From Candidatus Polarisedimenticolia bacterium (GTDB lineage: Bacteria > Acidobacteriota > Polarisedimenticolia > Gp22-AA2), in the NCBI GenBank assembly GCA_036001465.1, contig DASYUH010000032.1, forward strand, positions 62,001 to 126,000: 64,000 nt of DNA, given 5' to 3'. Position 1 is the stretch's first letter. Each line of letters begins with the position of its first letter. The notes under the pieces were generated by a model. That model was given only the letters and a program-made list of their open reading frames with translations. It was not told the origin of the DNA and ran no database searches. The position numbers and the translations under genes were made by a program. Shown here piece after piece: positions 46,083 through 53,780 of this stretch.

Positions 46083-47276
46083 TCAAGACGGGCGGCGCGC
46101 CCGGAACGCGAAGCGGGACAGGCGGCGGTCGGCCGCCAGGAGGGCCGCGACCTCGAGGAACCGCTGCTGTCCCTCGAACGTCGCCTCCCCTTCGATCGGC
46201 TTCAGGTCGGCGGATCTCCTTCCGCGGGCCGCCCGCCGCCGTGCCGCGAGTCGCGCCATGTTCTCGGTGCGGTCGAGGACCTCGATCCCTTCAAAGCCGG
46301 CATCGGCCAGGACCCGTTCGTCGGTCCCCGGCGGCACGAACAGGAAGAATCCGATCGAGCTTCGGATGGCGATCTCCTCGTGGGTGAGGGGGCCGGTCAC
46401 CACGATCGGGTCGGTGAAGACCAGGCGCCCGCCGGGGCGCAGGAGGCGGAGCCATTCCCGGAAGACCCGGTCGCGAGCGGGGAGGTGATTGACGGCATCG
46501 ATGCAGACGATCCCGTCGAACGAGGCGTCCGGAAAGGGAAGAGGGCGGCTCGCGTCCAGCCGATCGAACGTGACCCTGGAGGCGAGGCCGGCGCGCGCGG
46601 CGCCGGCCCGGGCCTCGGCGATCGCCTGATCGTGCGCGTCGACTCCCTGCACCGTGCATCCGGTGCGGGAGGCGATCCGGAGCGCCGGGCCTCCGGAACC
46701 GCAGGCGACGTCGAGGAGGCGGGCATCCGGAGACAGGGCGAGCCAGTCCAGGAAGAGATCCTGCTCGTCCGCGGTCAGCCAGCTGTTCTGGCCGATGTCC
46801 TCCCCGAAGGCCTCGGCCCTGATCTCCCTGTTCAGCGGAGAATCGAGGTGCCCGTACTGGGCGTCGTAGAGGCCGACGGTCGGGGGGCCCGCCGCGTTCC
46901 CCTTCCTGGCCCTGGCGTAGTCCTCCGCGCCCATGAAGTGCAGCGAGACGTACGGTGTGTCCCCGACCACCCAGCTGTCGTGCGGCACGGCGGGAACGTG
47001 GAACAGCGATCCCTCCCGGAGCTCGACGACCCGGCCGTCGTCGAACGCCACGGTCGCGACGCCCTGGAGGACCATCCCGACGTGCTCGACCTCGCAGCGC
47101 GACGCCCCTGCACCCGGGCCGACGTGCTGCGACCATCTCCAGCCCGGCTCGTAGCGCGCGCGGCCCAGGACGAGCGATCCGATGCGCACCAGCTCGAGGC
47201 GTCCCTTCTCGAAGGTGCGGACCTCGTCCGGATCGTCGAAGAGCCTCAGTGTGACCGTGTGGGCGTCGGAACCCAT
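46083..47276 (-). CDS. Cupin and SAM-dependent methyltransferase fusion
   Basis: A 397-residue fusion. The N-terminal 125 residues are a cupin-like beta-barrel (EPGWRWSQHVGP, EVEHVGMVLQG, VPHDSWVVGD). The C-terminal part is a class I methyltransferase: SAM motif I DVACGSGGPAL, then DASRPLPFPDASFDGIVCIDAVNHL, the type 11 form. The cupin has possible metal ligands (His and Glu in QHV...EVEHV). A -10 hexamer is seven bases before the ATG, with no RBS, so the mRNA may be leaderless. It may modify a small molecule that the cupin binds; the substrate is unknown. Confidence 0.88.
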   Translation of the reverse strand: MGSDAHTVTLRLFDDPDEVRTFEKGRLELVRIGSLVLGRARYEPGWRWSQHVGPGAGASRCEVEHVGMVLQGVATVAFDDGRVVELREGSLFHVPAVPHDSWVVGDTPYVSLHFMGAEDYARARKGNAAGPPTVGLYDAQYGHLDSPLNREIRAEAFGEDIGQNSWLTADEQDLFLDWLALSPDARLLDVACGSGGPALRIASRTGCTVQGVDAHDQAIAEARAGAARAGLASRVTFDRLDASRPLPFPDASFDGIVCIDAVNHLPARDRVFREWLRLLRPGGRLVFTDPIVVTGPLTHEEIAIRSSIGFFLFVPPGTDERVLADAGFEGIEVLDRTENMARLAARRRAARGRRSADLKPIEGEATFEGQQRFLEVAALLAADRRLSRFAFRARRPS

Positions 47277-47296: not shown

Positions 47297-48535
47297 TCAG
47301 TCCGTAGTACCCGGCAGGCGGATGAAATCCTGTTCTCCCCCCTCGAGGTACAGGACGAGCAGCAGGTAGTCCCGGAGCTGCCTCGTCAGGAGGAAGTGCT
47401 GCCGCACGCTCTCCCGGCCATTGGCCCCCAGCCAGTTGGCGTACGCCGGCTCCTTTAACAAGTGTTTGATCCAGTACGCCGTCCCTTCGATGCTGTGCGT
47501 CAGGATCCCGGAGTGCTTGTGGCCGATCTGGTTCGGCAGGCCGCCGACCGACCCGGCGATGACCGGCTTCCCCTTCCAGAGCGCCTCCGAGACGGTCAGC
47601 CCGAAGCCTTCCCGAAGGGACTTCTGAACAATGATCGTGGAGGCCCTCTGGATGGCGTTGATCTCCAGGTGGCTCGTGGGGGGAAGGCAGAGGACCCGCA
47701 CGCTGTCGTCCCCCTGCGCCCGCTCCCGGACCTCCGCGAGCACCTGCGCCCCCTCCGGGTCGTCGTCCGCCGGCCCGCCGACCAGGACCAGCCGCGCCAT
47801 GGCGGACGCCTTCGACAATCGGAAGGCCTCGATCACCCCCAGGGGATCCTTGAGACGATCGAAGCGGGAGACCTGCGTCACGAGCGCCCGGTCGGTCGGC
47901 AGTTCGAGACGCTGCAGGATGGCGTCGACCTCGCTCCCCTCGAGCTCCCGGTTCTTGTCGGACAGCGGATCGATGGAGGGGGAGATCAGCGCCTGCGGGA
48001 TCGGCAGGCTGCGGGCGAACGCCGGAGCGGAGAAGACGCAGGCGTCGTATCTCTCGACGTAAGGACGGAAGAACTCCCAGACGTCCGGATCGGGCCGCGA
48101 GAGGTCGATGTGGCAGCGCCAGATCCAGCGGTGCCCCGATCCGTTCCGCATCTGGACGAGGCCCGCGGGCTGGGGATCGTGGATGAACACGATGTCGGCG
48201 TCCAGGTTCAGCGAGGGGAGGTTCTCCCGGAGCGTCCGGTCATACGCCTCGTAGTCCCCCGCCGTCACCGTCTCGGCGGCCCCGTGGAGCGCATTGTGGA
48301 ATCGCTTGGTGGCCGCGTGGAAGGCCTCCCCTCCCCTGATGACCTCCCAGCGGGCGTCCAGCCCCAGCTCCCGCATGAGGGGAACCATCCGGCTCAGGAT
48401 CTCGGCCACCCCTCCGCCGACCGCCGTCGAGTTCACGTTCAGGAGCGAACGGCCCGTGAGGCGCCCCGCGAGCAGGTGGAGCTCGTCGAGCGTGTCCGCC
48501 CCGACGATGTCGCGATAGTCGTCAAGCCCCGGCAC
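47297..48535 (-). CDS. treT: Trehalose synthase, TreT-type GT4 glycosyltransferase
   Basis: A 412-residue GT-B retaining glycosyltransferase. The segment LLNVNSTAVGGGVAEIL is typical of the TreT/trehalose synthase group, and the E-x7-E motif (REGFGLTVSE) binds the nucleotide sugar. It should make trehalose from NDP-glucose and glucose, reversibly in archaeal homologues. The GTG at 48535 has GGAGGAG upstream and overlaps the end of the DUF5752 gene by 14 bases. This is the last gene of the trehalose operon. The family call is strong; the direction of use is not known. Confidence 0.85.
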   Translation of the reverse strand: MPGLDDYRDIVGADTLDELHLLAGRLTGRSLLNVNSTAVGGGVAEILSRMVPLMRELGLDARWEVIRGGEAFHAATKRFHNALHGAAETVTAGDYEAYDRTLRENLPSLNLDADIVFIHDPQPAGLVQMRNGSGHRWIWRCHIDLSRPDPDVWEFFRPYVERYDACVFSAPAFARSLPIPQALISPSIDPLSDKNRELEGSEVDAILQRLELPTDRALVTQVSRFDRLKDPLGVIEAFRLSKASAMARLVLVGGPADDDPEGAQVLAEVRERAQGDDSVRVLCLPPTSHLEINAIQRASTIIVQKSLREGFGLTVSEALWKGKPVIAGSVGGLPNQIGHKHSGILTHSIEGTAYWIKHLLKEPAYANWLGANGRESVRQHFLLTRQLRDYLLLVLYLEGGEQDFIRLPGTTD

Positions 48536-49202
48536 GGGAGTGCTCCTCCAGCCGCCGGTCCACCATCGTGATGAGCATCGATCGCAGCCCTTCCAGGGTG
48601 TGGGTGTAGGGATCGAGGTTCGAGACCTTCCTGGCCAGGGCGGGCTCGTCCAGCTCCCCCTCGAGCCAGGTCGCGAAATCATTGTGCCCCAGGGGAGGGC
48701 GCAGCAGGGACTCGAAGAGGTGCAGGTAGAGGCTCGACGGGCTGACCCTCCTCAGGCAGCGCGCGAAGCCGGCGAGATCGCGGGCCTCGTGCGCGGTCGG
48801 GACCGAGAACCGGATGGCCTGCATGAAGTGAAACTCCTTCCCCTCGGGGACCTCCCCGCCGTTCCCCCGGTCCGCGCCGCCTCGCCTGATCGCCTCGACC
48901 AGAGCGCGCTTCAGATCGTCGAGTGAATCGAACGTCAGGGTGTCGACCGACGCCAGCTGCTCTCCCAGCCTCTCGTCTCCCAGGACGTTCGTGACCCAGT
49001 ACGCGAAGTCGTTCGGAGGCTCGGGCACGAGGTACTGGTGCTGCCGCAGGAAGCGATACGTGTGCTGGTAGATGACCGGGTCGGGGGCGGCCTCGAGATG
49101 GCCGAGCAGCTCCCCGAGGTTCCTGGCCTTGAGCCCGGTCAGGCGGGTGAGGCAGAGCCGCGTGAAGAAACGGAACGGCCGGCGCGCCCGCGCGAGCTTC
49201 AT
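48522..49202 (-). CDS. DUF5752 family protein
   Basis: A 226-residue helical protein without signal or membrane segments. Motifs are YQHTYRFLRQHQYL, PNDFAYWVTN and GHNDFATWLEGELDEPALA, repeated in part as two similar halves, as in the DUF5752 family. Members are often encoded next to trehalose synthesis genes; the function is unknown. Its ATG overlaps the otsB stop (ATGA) and its 3' end overlaps treT, so it is probably made in step with both enzymes. Confidence 0.82.
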   Translation of the reverse strand: MKLARARRPFRFFTRLCLTRLTGLKARNLGELLGHLEAAPDPVIYQHTYRFLRQHQYLVPEPPNDFAYWVTNVLGDERLGEQLASVDTLTFDSLDDLKRALVEAIRRGGADRGNGGEVPEGKEFHFMQAIRFSVPTAHEARDLAGFARCLRRVSPSSLYLHLFESLLRPPLGHNDFATWLEGELDEPALARKVSNLDPYTHTLEGLRSMLITMVDRRLEEHSRAGA

Positions 49203-49936
49203 CCTCTCCCCTCCAGGGCGGCACGGGTCTCGCGGAGGAACCGCGCCACCTGCCCCTGGTCGATCAGGTAGTAATCCGCCCGGGAGGACTTCAGGCGGCC
49301 GACCCGGATGCTGAGCCCTCTTCCCTTCAGGGCTGAGAAGATGTCCTCGTCGGTCGTGTCGTCACCCAGCGCGATCGGAAACGGATTTCCCAGGTGCCGC
49401 ATCAGGTAGAGGGACGCGGCTCCCTTGTGCCACTTCACTCGAGGGAGGAGCTCCCAGACCTTCCTCCCGGCCCCCCACCTCACCGGAAGCCCGGACGCAT
49501 CCACCCGGATGCGGGAGCGCAGCCATGCCAGGGAACGCCGGGAGCGCCGCGCCACCCGCCGGTAGTGCACGCTCAGGGTCAGCCCCTTGTTCTCGAGGGA
49601 CGCGCCCGGGACGCGCCCGAGATCGCTCTCGATCCGGGCGGCCAGATCCTGGACGATCGACCGCCGCGCGACCGCCCCGGCATGCCGGAACGAGATTCCC
49701 GGACCCGCGATCTCCAGTCCGTGGTTTCCGCCGTAGTAGAGGGCGGGCATATCGACGCGCGCTTGCAGATCCTTCAGCGATCGCCCGCTCAGGACCGCCA
49801 CCCCGACCCCCGGCCGGGCCTGGAGCGAGCCGAGGAGCCCGCGGATCTCCTCCGAGAGCCGCGCCGCGTCGTTCCTCCCGGACAGCGGGGCCAGGGTGCC
49901 GTCGAAATCGAACAGCAGGAGGACGCGCTTCTGCAT
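49199..49936 (-). CDS. otsB: Trehalose-6-phosphate phosphatase
   Basis: A 245-residue HAD-superfamily phosphatase. Motif I is LLFDFDGTLAP, the trehalose-phosphatase marker YYGGNHGLEI is present, and motif IV is GDDTTDEDIF. It removes phosphate from trehalose 6-phosphate. I use the ATG at 49936; a GTG at 49984 is possible but its AGGAG is too close. The gene follows otsA by 52 bases and overlaps the DUF5752 gene by four bases (ATGA). Confidence 0.93.
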   Translation of the reverse strand: MQKRVLLLFDFDGTLAPLSGRNDAARLSEEIRGLLGSLQARPGVGVAVLSGRSLKDLQARVDMPALYYGGNHGLEIAGPGISFRHAGAVARRSIVQDLAARIESDLGRVPGASLENKGLTLSVHYRRVARRSRRSLAWLRSRIRVDASGLPVRWGAGRKVWELLPRVKWHKGAASLYLMRHLGNPFPIALGDDTTDEDIFSALKGRGLSIRVGRLKSSRADYYLIDQGQVARFLRETRAALEGRG

Positions 49937-49988
49937 CGCGATCCGGCCCCTGACTCGCGGCCAATCCGGCCACAGGCTCCGCACGCTC

Positions 49989-52247
49989 CTACTCGCTCCT
50001 CGCCACGACCTGATCGAGGCGCACCTGCGACAGCGCTTCGATCAGGTTGCCTGCCCAGCGATAGATATTGTGCTCCCGGACCGTCTCCCTCATCCGGGCC
50101 ATGCGAGTGGCCTGATCCTCCCGGCTCATCTGCAGCGCGCTGTCAATCGCACCCGCCATCTCCTCGATGTCGTAGGGGTTGACGATGAGGGCGTCCCGCA
50201 GCTCTCGCGACGCGCCGGTGAAGCGACTCAGGATCAGGACCCCTGCGCCGTCGTCGCGCGAGGCGACGAACTCCTTGGCGACCAGGTTCATCCCGTCGTG
50301 CAGGGACGTGACCATGCAGAAGTCGGCGTGCCGGTAGAACGGCAGGATCTCCCGGTGGCTGTGGTGTCTCTTCAGGAAGACGATCGGCTTCCAGTCCCTC
50401 GCCTGGAATTTCCAGTTGATGCGCTCCGCCTCGGACTCCACTTCCGCCAGGAAGTCGTGGTAGCGCTTGATGTGCGTGCGGCTCGGCGCCCCGAGCTGGA
50501 CGAAGGTCAACTCCCCCCGGAACGTGGGATGGATCTCCAGGAAGCGCTCGATCGATCGGAAGCGCTCGAGGACCCCCTTGGTGTAGTCCATCCGATCCAC
50601 TCCGATGCCCAGATACCTTCCGGTGATTCCCATTTCCTTCAGGAAGGTCTCGCGATCGGTTTCCGACGCGCGATCGGGCGCCACGTCCTGAAAGGTTTCG
50701 GGAAACGCCACGCTGATCGGGTAGGGATGGACGGCCGTGGCGTGGCCCGAGCGCCTGACCTCGAACCGCTCCCAGTCGACACGCGATTCCAGCGTGCGAT
50801 CGACGGTGTCGAGAAAGTTGTTGCAGTGAACCTGGGTATGGAATCCGATGAGGTCCGCCCCCAGCATTCCCTGCAGGAGCTCCCTCCTCCAGGGGCAGAC
50901 CCCGAAGGCCTCCGGGTTCGGCCAGGGAATGTGCCAGAAGATCGCGATCCGCGCGTCCGGCCGCCGCTGCTTGAGAAGCTCGGGCAGGAGCGCGAGATGG
51001 TAGTCCTGGATCAGGATGCACGGCTCCTGCAAGCCCTCCATTTCTTTCGCGGCGGCGTCCGCGAACTTCTGATTGGCCTTCTCGTAGTGGGCCCAGTCCT
51101 CCGGCCTGAAGACGGGCCGCGTGTGGGCGATGTGGCAGAGAGGCCAGAGCCCTTCGTTGGCCAGCCCGTAGTAATAGCCGTCCTCCTCCTCCTTCGTCAG
51201 GGCCACTCTCCTGAGGGTGTAGAGCGGGTCGTCGGCCGGCACCCTGATGCGGTTCTCGCGATCGACGACCTGCCAGTCGGCATCGCCGGCTCCATGGGCG
51301 ATCCAGGTGCCGCCGCTCGCCCGCATGATCGGATCGAGGGCGGTGACCAGCCCCCCGGCCGGCACGATGCACTCGACGCTTCGCCCCCGGCGGACGTGCA
51401 TGTACGGCTCCCGGTTTGAGACGACGAGGAGCGGCCTTCCCTGCAGCCTGTGACGCACGTGCTCGGCGAGCCTGTCCGGCGTCCACCGCGCCTCGCCGGC
51501 CTGCCTGAGCCTCGCCTCCTCTTCGACTGCGGCCCGGGCGCGGGCCAGCTGCCGGGAGAACGTCTCGACTTCCCGCGTCAGGGGGGAGAACAAGTGAACG
51601 TTCGGCGGCGCCGGCCGCAGGGCCGGCTCTCCCGTGCGCAGCTGCTTCATCCAGAGCGCCATCTGGGCGATGGGGCCTGCGATGCTGAAACGCAGGACGA
51701 GAATCGTCACGAGCACGATGAGGGCCGTCTGCGCCAGGGCCATCAGGAAGGCGCGGCGCCAGGCCGATCCGAGGCGCGGCGGGGCCGGGGTCGGCCCGTG
51801 CACAACCGCCAGAGCGCCCAGCGGCTCGCCGTGGATCGTGAGCGGCAGGGCGTCGACCTGGATCGACCGGTCCTTCAGGCCGGCACTCCCTCTCGCCGGT
51901 GACCCGTTCCTGAGCGCCTGGCGCACCGGATCGGGCGGGGAGGAAGGGGCCGCCTGGAGCCGGGACGAGCGGGAGATGAGTTCCCCCTTCGGGCCATAGA
52001 CTGCCAGACCGGCGACTCCTCCCCCGTCCCCGACGGCCTCCGCTAGACGGTCGAGGCCCTTCCGGTCGCCCCGTTCCACGAGCTCCAGCACCACCCCCTC
52101 GAGACCGTCGGCCAGGAGCCTCGCCCGGCGCGCGAAGGCCTCCTCCTGCGCGCGGCCGTCACGGCTTACCTGGAAGAACGCCCCCAGGGAAGCCAGCGCG
52201 ATGGCGACGATGGCCAGCGAGACGACGATTCTGCGGGTGATGCGCAT
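49989..52247 (-). CDS. otsA: Membrane-anchored trehalose-6-phosphate synthase with sensor and HAMP segment
   Basis: A 752-residue fusion. Residues 1-260 look like a sensor-kinase front end: TM1 (VVSLAIVAIALASLGAFF), a periplasmic region of about 120 residues, TM2 (FLMALAQTALIVLVTILVL), then a HAMP-like stretch and a helical linker. The GT20 catalytic domain follows: LLVVSNREPYMH, PAGGLVTAL, FWHIPWPNPE, LIQDYHLALLP and VDRMDYTKG. NREPY replaces the usual NRLP, so the acceptor could differ from glucose 6-phosphate. It is first in the operon with otsB, the DUF5752 gene and treT. Confidence 0.9.
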   Translation of the reverse strand: MRITRRIVVSLAIVAIALASLGAFFQVSRDGRAQEEAFARRARLLADGLEGVVLELVERGDRKGLDRLAEAVGDGGGVAGLAVYGPKGELISRSSRLQAAPSSPPDPVRQALRNGSPARGSAGLKDRSIQVDALPLTIHGEPLGALAVVHGPTPAPPRLGSAWRRAFLMALAQTALIVLVTILVLRFSIAGPIAQMALWMKQLRTGEPALRPAPPNVHLFSPLTREVETFSRQLARARAAVEEEARLRQAGEARWTPDRLAEHVRHRLQGRPLLVVSNREPYMHVRRGRSVECIVPAGGLVTALDPIMRASGGTWIAHGAGDADWQVVDRENRIRVPADDPLYTLRRVALTKEEEDGYYYGLANEGLWPLCHIAHTRPVFRPEDWAHYEKANQKFADAAAKEMEGLQEPCILIQDYHLALLPELLKQRRPDARIAIFWHIPWPNPEAFGVCPWRRELLQGMLGADLIGFHTQVHCNNFLDTVDRTLESRVDWERFEVRRSGHATAVHPYPISVAFPETFQDVAPDRASETDRETFLKEMGITGRYLGIGVDRMDYTKGVLERFRSIERFLEIHPTFRGELTFVQLGAPSRTHIKRYHDFLAEVESEAERINWKFQARDWKPIVFLKRHHSHREILPFYRHADFCMVTSLHDGMNLVAKEFVASRDDGAGVLILSRFTGASRELRDALIVNPYDIEEMAGAIDSALQMSREDQATRMARMRETVREHNIYRWAGNLIEALSQVRLDQVVARSE

Positions 52248-52936: not shown

Positions 52937-53521
52937 TCAGCCGCGTATCTGAATCTGGCTGACCACGTGCTTGACGCCTTCCGTGTCGCGGGCGACGCGC
53001 GCGGCGAGCTGGCGCTCGGCGTCGGAGCCGGCCTCGCCCGTGAGGATCACCGTGCCTCGGTCGGTGCGAACGCTGATCCTCGATCCCCTGACCCCGGGCT
53101 CGAACGCCAGCGCCATTTTCACGGAGGCGGTGACCGAGGCGTCGTGAACGGCCTCGCCGAATGTCCTGTCGGACTCCTCGAGGCCGTCGCCGCCGCTCTC
53201 GGCCAGCACGAGATCGTTCCGGACCTCCCGGACGCCGTCCGCGTTGCCGGCGATCGCCGCGGCGAGATCACGATGGATGTCGCTGGGGACCGTTCCGCGC
53301 AGGGTCACCACGCCGTCGTGGGTTCCGACCTGGATTCGGCACGCATCGAGGTGTCCGTTGAACAGATAGGTCGTCTTGATGCGCATGGTGATCGATGCGT
53401 CGTGAATCGCATCCCCGGCTTCGGGCTTCACGTCCGCCCGCGGAGCGGACTCCGAGCAGCCGAGAACCAGGGCCGCGATGCCCAGAAGCACGATGTCCAC
53501 GAAGCCGCCAGGGCGATGCAT
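52937..53521 (-). CDS. BON-domain lipoprotein
   Basis: A 194-residue protein. It starts at the ATG at 53521 (AAGGAG upstream). The N-terminus ends in the lipobox-like LVLGCSES, so it is probably lipid-anchored. Two BON domains follow: the first around DGVVTLRGTVPSDIHRD, the second around RGTVILTGEAGSDAER. BON proteins bind phospholipid or protect the envelope and are often osmotically induced (OsmY type), which fits the adjoining trehalose operon. Confidence 0.87.
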   Translation of the reverse strand: MHRPGGFVDIVLLGIAALVLGCSESAPRADVKPEAGDAIHDASITMRIKTTYLFNGHLDACRIQVGTHDGVVTLRGTVPSDIHRDLAAAIAGNADGVREVRNDLVLAESGGDGLEESDRTFGEAVHDASVTASVKMALAFEPGVRGSRISVRTDRGTVILTGEAGSDAERQLAARVARDTEGVKHVVSQIQIRG

Positions 53522-53780
53522 GATCGTCTCCTTCCTGGCCGCGACCGCTCCCCGGTGCACTGGACGCGGGAGCGATTCGCAACCGATTGCGCGTGATGAA
53601 CAGGTCCGGTGCGCGATTGTGATCAGCAAGGTCGATGCCACCCGGCAGCTCGAGGACGCCGCCGCGGAGCAAATCGCTGTGATTCAGTGAGATGCAGAGA
53701 TCCGGAGCCGAGGCCCGCGCGTCCTTCCCGGTGAGCATGATGTCCTCCAGGAGAGATAGAGGCGAGGGGGCATTTCCCGA
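53522..53780. other. Gap between the BON and FG-GAP genes
   Basis: About 260 bases hold no gene that I can support. On the minus strand an ATG at 53738 has a good RBS (GGAGG, five bases) and opens a frame that would overlap the BON gene by about 250 bases in another frame. That overlap, and the lack of any family match, make it doubtful. Confidence 0.35.

Follow-up and report, generated by a model that had tools for sequence, protein, structure and literature searches.

The gene at positions 49989-52247 (minus strand) of the 64,000-nucleotide stretch of Candidatus Polarisedimenticolia DNA analyzed here (the window) raises the question of whether a trehalose-6-phosphate (T6P) synthase of the GT20 family is joined to the front end of a membrane receptor and, if so, whether that front end could control the enzyme. 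The open frame starts with an ATG at 52247, ends with a stop at 49989, and encodes 752 amino acids; inspection of the frame and its translation revealed no internal stop or frameshift, and full-length relatives back the same reading. Because this frame is unbroken, the junction between the sensor and GT20 lies inside a single protein.

Hydropathy analysis of the window protein identified exactly two transmembrane (TM) segments upstream of GT20, and the same two-TM pattern was found in all 36 aligned relatives. TM1 (residues 5-27, 52167-52235; hydropathy peak 2.64), which lies within a modeled helix spanning residues 2-59, is followed by a periplasmic domain with a predicted Cache fold (residues 28-160, 51768-52166), assigned from the model and matches to PDB structures and eroded in this protein, and by TM2 (residues 164-187, 51687-51758; hydropathy peak 2.61). 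Next come a divergent HAMP (residues 188-237, 51537-51686), a short signaling-type coil with the conserved motif ARxAxEEEARLR (residues 238-254, 51486-51536), a linker helix beginning with W255-T256 (residues 255-271, 51435-51485), and the GT20 T6P synthase domain (residues 272-744, 50016-51434), all encoded on the minus strand. W255 and L260 of the linker are invariant, and this helix is retained even in members that lack the sensor. The AlphaFold2 models of the whole protein and of residues 1-268 reached mean pLDDT values of 82 and 81, respectively, and both show a long helix and, after it, a mixed sheet. The sequence-only reading had described two TM segments flanking a periplasmic region, a HAMP-like stretch, and a full GT20 domain in one protein, and had considered that the N-terminus might be a separate protein produced through a frameshift or an internal start. 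The single ATG-initiated frame is free of frameshifts, the described architecture was borne out, and its front end turned out to be related to kinase sensors. The fusion is thus real, with TM1, Cache, TM2, divergent HAMP, coil, and GT20 following one another in one polypeptide.

The source of the front end is indicated by frames other than fusions that were returned by the genome search with the window protein and that matched residues 5-279. The frames that we read are NtrB-like histidine kinases with significant HAMP, HisKA, and ATPase domains, and one of them (L112; PF00672 at 4.6e-14) is encoded in the same genome as the window protein. A profile of the N-terminal region of the fused family could be aligned, almost without gaps, to five kinases of this type along 253 columns (probability 99.8%, E-value 3e-30; 0.6% for the reversed control). 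The N-terminal model aligned with full-length WalK from the PDB over 264 residues (TM-score 0.71 over the query, Z-score 14.3), and residues 29-163, approximately, matched the sensor domains of WalK, CitA, DcuS, and DctB (Z-scores 13.9-15.1). The modeled periplasmic fold is of the single Cache (PAS-like) sensor type, and some of the relatives match the Pfam sCache and dCache models. In the Pfam search, the window protein contained neither a DHp nor a HATPase domain, the only domain after the coil being GT20. Judged by sequence profiles and predicted structure, the fused front end and the kinase sensor-HAMP modules share a common ancestry.

The HAMP assignment required additional scrutiny because the window protein gave no PF00672 match, even at an E-value limit of 10. 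The earlier reading had placed HAMP at residues 200-260 and regarded failure of HAMP models in that region as decisive against it. For the Pfam model, that failure was observed with the window protein, but it is overturned by the relatives, 9 of 36 of which match PF00672 weakly (best E-value 3e-4), among them L099, where the match covers residues 192-236, directly after TM2. A comparison limited to the HAMP portions of the fused family and the kinases yielded a probability of 96-97% (E-value of about 1e-9), compared with 0.5-1.7% for the controls (the reversed segment, the kinase DHp helices, and the kinase TM1 helix). Given the matches in relatives and the alignment with kinase HAMPs, the assignment stands despite the Pfam miss, with the position shifted to approximately residues 188-237; a divergent HAMP is the best reading of this segment. 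The window protein keeps P192, G206, L223, E226, and L234, and the DExG motif is mostly reduced to a lone D, which is present in 21 of the 36 family members and is replaced by His in the window protein.

At least 80 fused full-length relatives were found. Fused proteins of the same length are encoded in Elusimicrobiota, Omnitrophota, Nitrospirota, Nitrospinota, Acidobacteriota, Rokubacteria, Bacteroidota, and further groups including Myxococcota and other deltaproteobacteria. In a phylogeny of GT20s, the fusions formed a single clade (SH-aLRT 95-96), with soluble NREP-type GT20s outside. As judged from this distribution, the fusion family is old, widespread, and conserved in many phyla, most of them uncultured. 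Geobacter sulfurreducens GSU2337, a T6P synthase that according to PMC2700814 has a domain resembling the Mycobacterium tuberculosis enzyme, may be a cultured member. The literature searched contained no paper linking HAMP with T6P synthase.

The NREPY motif (residues 278-282), which the sequence-only reading had singled out as a variant of the substrate motif, is indeed present, and the OtsA arginine that binds glucose 6-phosphate, the acceptor, is preserved as R279. The motif also occurs in soluble GT20s that do not belong to the fused clade (those of Deinococcus, L009, and L139), so it was rejected as a marker of the fusion. Since such NREP-type enzymes lacking a front end fall outside the fused group, the motif predates the fusion.

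Nested within the fused clade are an Aminobacter enzyme with one TM segment and a soluble enzyme from genome G095, which the tree topology suggests are losses of the front end. The Aminobacter protein, encoded on plasmid pAA02 (L121:3282-5096, plus strand), has a single N-terminal TM segment and neither Cache nor HAMP. Together with a member of the clade devoid of any front end (L140), it implies that the sensor is not indispensable to the enzyme. The window protein itself groups with sequences from Elusimicrobiota, whereas two genomes of the same genus (G001 and G002) carry proteins on a deep, different branch and a third (G003) encodes a soluble enzyme. This discrepancy suggests that the window gene was acquired horizontally.

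The sister clade of the sensor-HAMP-GT20 fusions in the GT20 tree includes proteins in which a Na+/H+ antiporter (PF00999) is joined to an NREP-type GT20 in a single frame (L010:1471-4203, minus strand; L125-L130; L137; L138). In L010, the antiporter domain (82 bits) runs in frame into GT20. Nine such frames were read from nine genomes, and matches spanning the junction were listed in 14 genomes. One genome, G089, encodes an antiporter-GT20 fusion along with two sensor-HAMP-GT20 fusions (L130, L131, and L132). The antiporter fusion is perhaps the more striking of the two arrangements, and these findings favor a general tendency for this GT20 lineage to become linked with membrane stress machinery.

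Within the lineage of the window protein, the parts of the fusion appear to have evolved differently. The window protein keeps 91% of the conserved GT20 positions (family median, 89%) and 76% of those in the TM2-HAMP-coil region (median, 81%), but just 49% of the conserved periplasmic positions (median, 77%). Residue 151 is Asp in 33 of 36 members, and the window protein is the only member with Gly. In a sister protein with 79% identity (L003:1498-3414, minus strand), the periplasmic domain has been lost in frame with TM1, TM2, HAMP, coil, and GT20 all kept, although this deletion is thin evidence, coming from one sister genome, and might conceivably reflect a misassembly. The dN/dS values between these two proteins, the pair to which this evidence is limited because dS is saturated for most others, are 0.21 for TM2-HAMP-coil and 0.19 for GT20. 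Selection thus maintains HAMP and membrane attachment while the sensor decays. These counts and comparisons show that erosion of the periplasmic domain is under way in this lineage, and the combination of the eroding Cache with a sister that lacks the sensor makes an external ligand doubtful here.

We propose that a single fusion event placed a kinase-type TM-Cache-TM-HAMP module N-terminal to a soluble GT20, producing a membrane-bound T6P synthase. HAMP functions in dimers, and the protein is likely to be dimeric. In the model, the HAMP/coil helix (residues 218-253) is followed by a helix at 257-268 and then by a strand at 273-277 that ends beside R279, so that the shortest signal route would lead from HAMP into the acceptor-binding strand. 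The HAMP bundle and the coil would relay a conformational change by way of helix 257-268 to the N-terminal Rossmann domain, entering it at the first beta strand some ten residues ahead of Arg279, which binds the acceptor phosphate, and would thereby set T6P synthase activity post-translationally. OtsA enzymes are dimers or tetramers in which the N-terminal domain, and helix 1 especially, moves during catalysis (PMC6879718). The retention of HAMP under purifying selection favors such coupling, and we give direct HAMP-dependent control, as predicted from sequence comparison and modeling, somewhat better than an even chance. Weighing against it are the degenerate HAMP, the erosion of the periplasmic domain here and its deletion in L003, and the clade members that have one TM segment or no front end. 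That an external ligand exerts control in this organism is less probable than HAMP control as such; in this lineage, membrane state or assembly would be a likelier input than the periplasmic ligand of the ancestral sensor. Osmotic stress has weak circumstantial support as the signal, from the trehalose chemistry and an upstream gene encoding BON domains. The wider proposition, that there is a class of one-component metabolic receptors in which T6P synthase is under the allosteric control of a HAMP receptor, or of a Na+/H+ antiporter in the case of the sister clade, is tentative and falls short of an even chance.

The strongest competitor is that the front end serves mainly as a membrane anchor, which would place T6P synthesis and OtsB at the membrane, with HAMP acting as a dimerization scaffold that transmits no signal. 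Loss of family-conserved positions from the sensor of the window protein fits this possibility, as do the retention of both TM segments after sensor loss in L003, the single TM segment of the Aminobacter enzyme that lacks Cache and HAMP, and the tethering of the sister GT20 clade to the membrane by an antiporter instead. However, the Cache domain is conserved across the wider family, as position 151 illustrates, the kinship with kinase sensors is gapless from end to end, and a mere anchor would need neither Cache nor HAMP over so many phyla; we regard this possibility as rather unlikely. Several natural variants, namely, proteins with an intact sensor, with the sensor deleted and HAMP kept, with one TM segment, or with an antiporter, make the role of HAMP and the membrane directly testable.

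PF00982 (Glyco_transf_20) matched residues 274-740 of the window protein with 396 bits (cutoff, 32.5) over profile positions 4-472 of 473. The NCBIfam OtsA model TIGR02400 scored 435 bits, under the equivalog cutoff of 565, which places this GT20 outside the OtsA equivalog core. Eleven substrate-binding residues of Escherichia coli OtsA, with roles taken from PMC1769515 and PMC6879718, are all identical at the aligned positions (Arg9, Gly22, Tyr76, Trp85, Asp130, His154, Arg262, Lys267, Arg300, Asp361, and Glu369), and most are invariant throughout the alignment of the fused family. By numbering, no position could be assigned to the published Trp40; OtsA Trp39 aligns with W315 and Trp42 with H318. 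The latter position, the second Trp of the OtsA WFGW motif, is occupied by His, Gln, Ser, or Ala across the fused family. This replacement and the subthreshold OtsA score would be compatible with a GT20 that is no longer an efficient T6P maker, having acquired a metabolite-sensing or regulatory output or another acceptor. Such a change is improbable, given that all eleven substrate residues are present, that the OtsA model outscores the glucosylglycerol-phosphate synthase model (435 versus 304), that otsB lies directly downstream, and that the genome holds no other GT20. At the residue level, the active site is intact, and T6P synthesis is predicted.

The fusion gene is immediately followed by otsB, encoding trehalose-6-phosphate phosphatase (49199-49984, minus strand, likely ATG at 49936; PF02358 and TIGR00685 above cutoff), then by a gene for a DUF5752 protein (48522-49202, minus strand; PF19027, 189 bits), the start of which overlaps the otsB stop, and by a gene for a TreT-like GT4 glycosyltransferase (47297-48682, minus strand; PF21269, 185 bits), the latter two being conserved neighbors. 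Among 80 related loci, many of which end at contig edges, same-strand homologs of OtsB, DUF5752, and TreT were found in 67, 49, and 45, respectively, a few of these counts stemming from upstream matches or matches to other genes; most OtsB matches are no farther than about 140 bases downstream of the fusion gene. The segment 47297-49202 thus brings two trehalose routes together, with the TreT-like GT4 and DUF5752 in an otsA/otsB operon, as in about half of the related loci. No mention of DUF5752 was found in the literature searched. The trehalose operon adjoins a gene for a protein with a cupin-like N-terminus and a SAM methyltransferase domain (46083-47276, minus strand). A two-BON-domain (OsmY-like) protein is encoded upstream of the fusion (52937-53641, minus strand) and also near the gene in the sister L003. 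Among 54 upstream proteins from 16 loci, no conserved upstream gene was detected, only a Na+/H+ exchanger and TrkA_N occurring twice each, and upstream neighbors were rejected as a clue to the signal.

An annotation artifact, in the form of a chance frame or of two neighboring genes mistakenly joined, found no support and is extremely improbable given the single stop-free frame, more than 80 independent full-length relatives, and protein-level purifying selection across the junction.

Trehalose synthesis is usually described as regulated by gene expression or small-molecule effectors. If the GT20 is controlled by HAMP, the envelope would be wired directly to the production of compatible solutes, and the outputs of HAMP would extend to a glycosyltransferase of central metabolism. 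Should the one-component proposition hold, such a receptor would let envelope or ionic stress set compatible-solute synthesis without transcription or phosphorylation.

What is new here is the joining of a kinase-type receptor front end to OtsA, each part being already known. The fusion shares with OtsA (E. coli, 1GZ5; M. thermoresistibile, 5JIJ) the full GT-B domain, the substrate residues, and the partnership with otsB, but about 270 residues of TM-Cache-TM-HAMP-coil stand ahead of that domain in the fusion, whereas classical OtsA is a soluble protein whose sequence starts with the first Rossmann strand. Kinases of the WalK, CitA, DcuS, and DctB type, as well as L112, have the same gapless order of TM1, Cache, TM2, HAMP, and coil, and differ in that their output is DHp and ATPase rather than a sugar-making enzyme and that their HAMP is less divergent. 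In the antiporter-GT20 proteins, a membrane front end is joined at the same place of a GT20 from the sister clade, but it is a PF00999 transporter and not a receptor. HAMP is joined to enzymes elsewhere, in class III adenylyl cyclases, GGDEF/EAL proteins, and PP2C phosphatases, which likewise couple a membrane receptor directly to a catalytic domain; the outputs of those enzymes make or break signals, whereas the GT20 domain here is predicted to make a metabolic intermediate, the precursor of a compatible solute.
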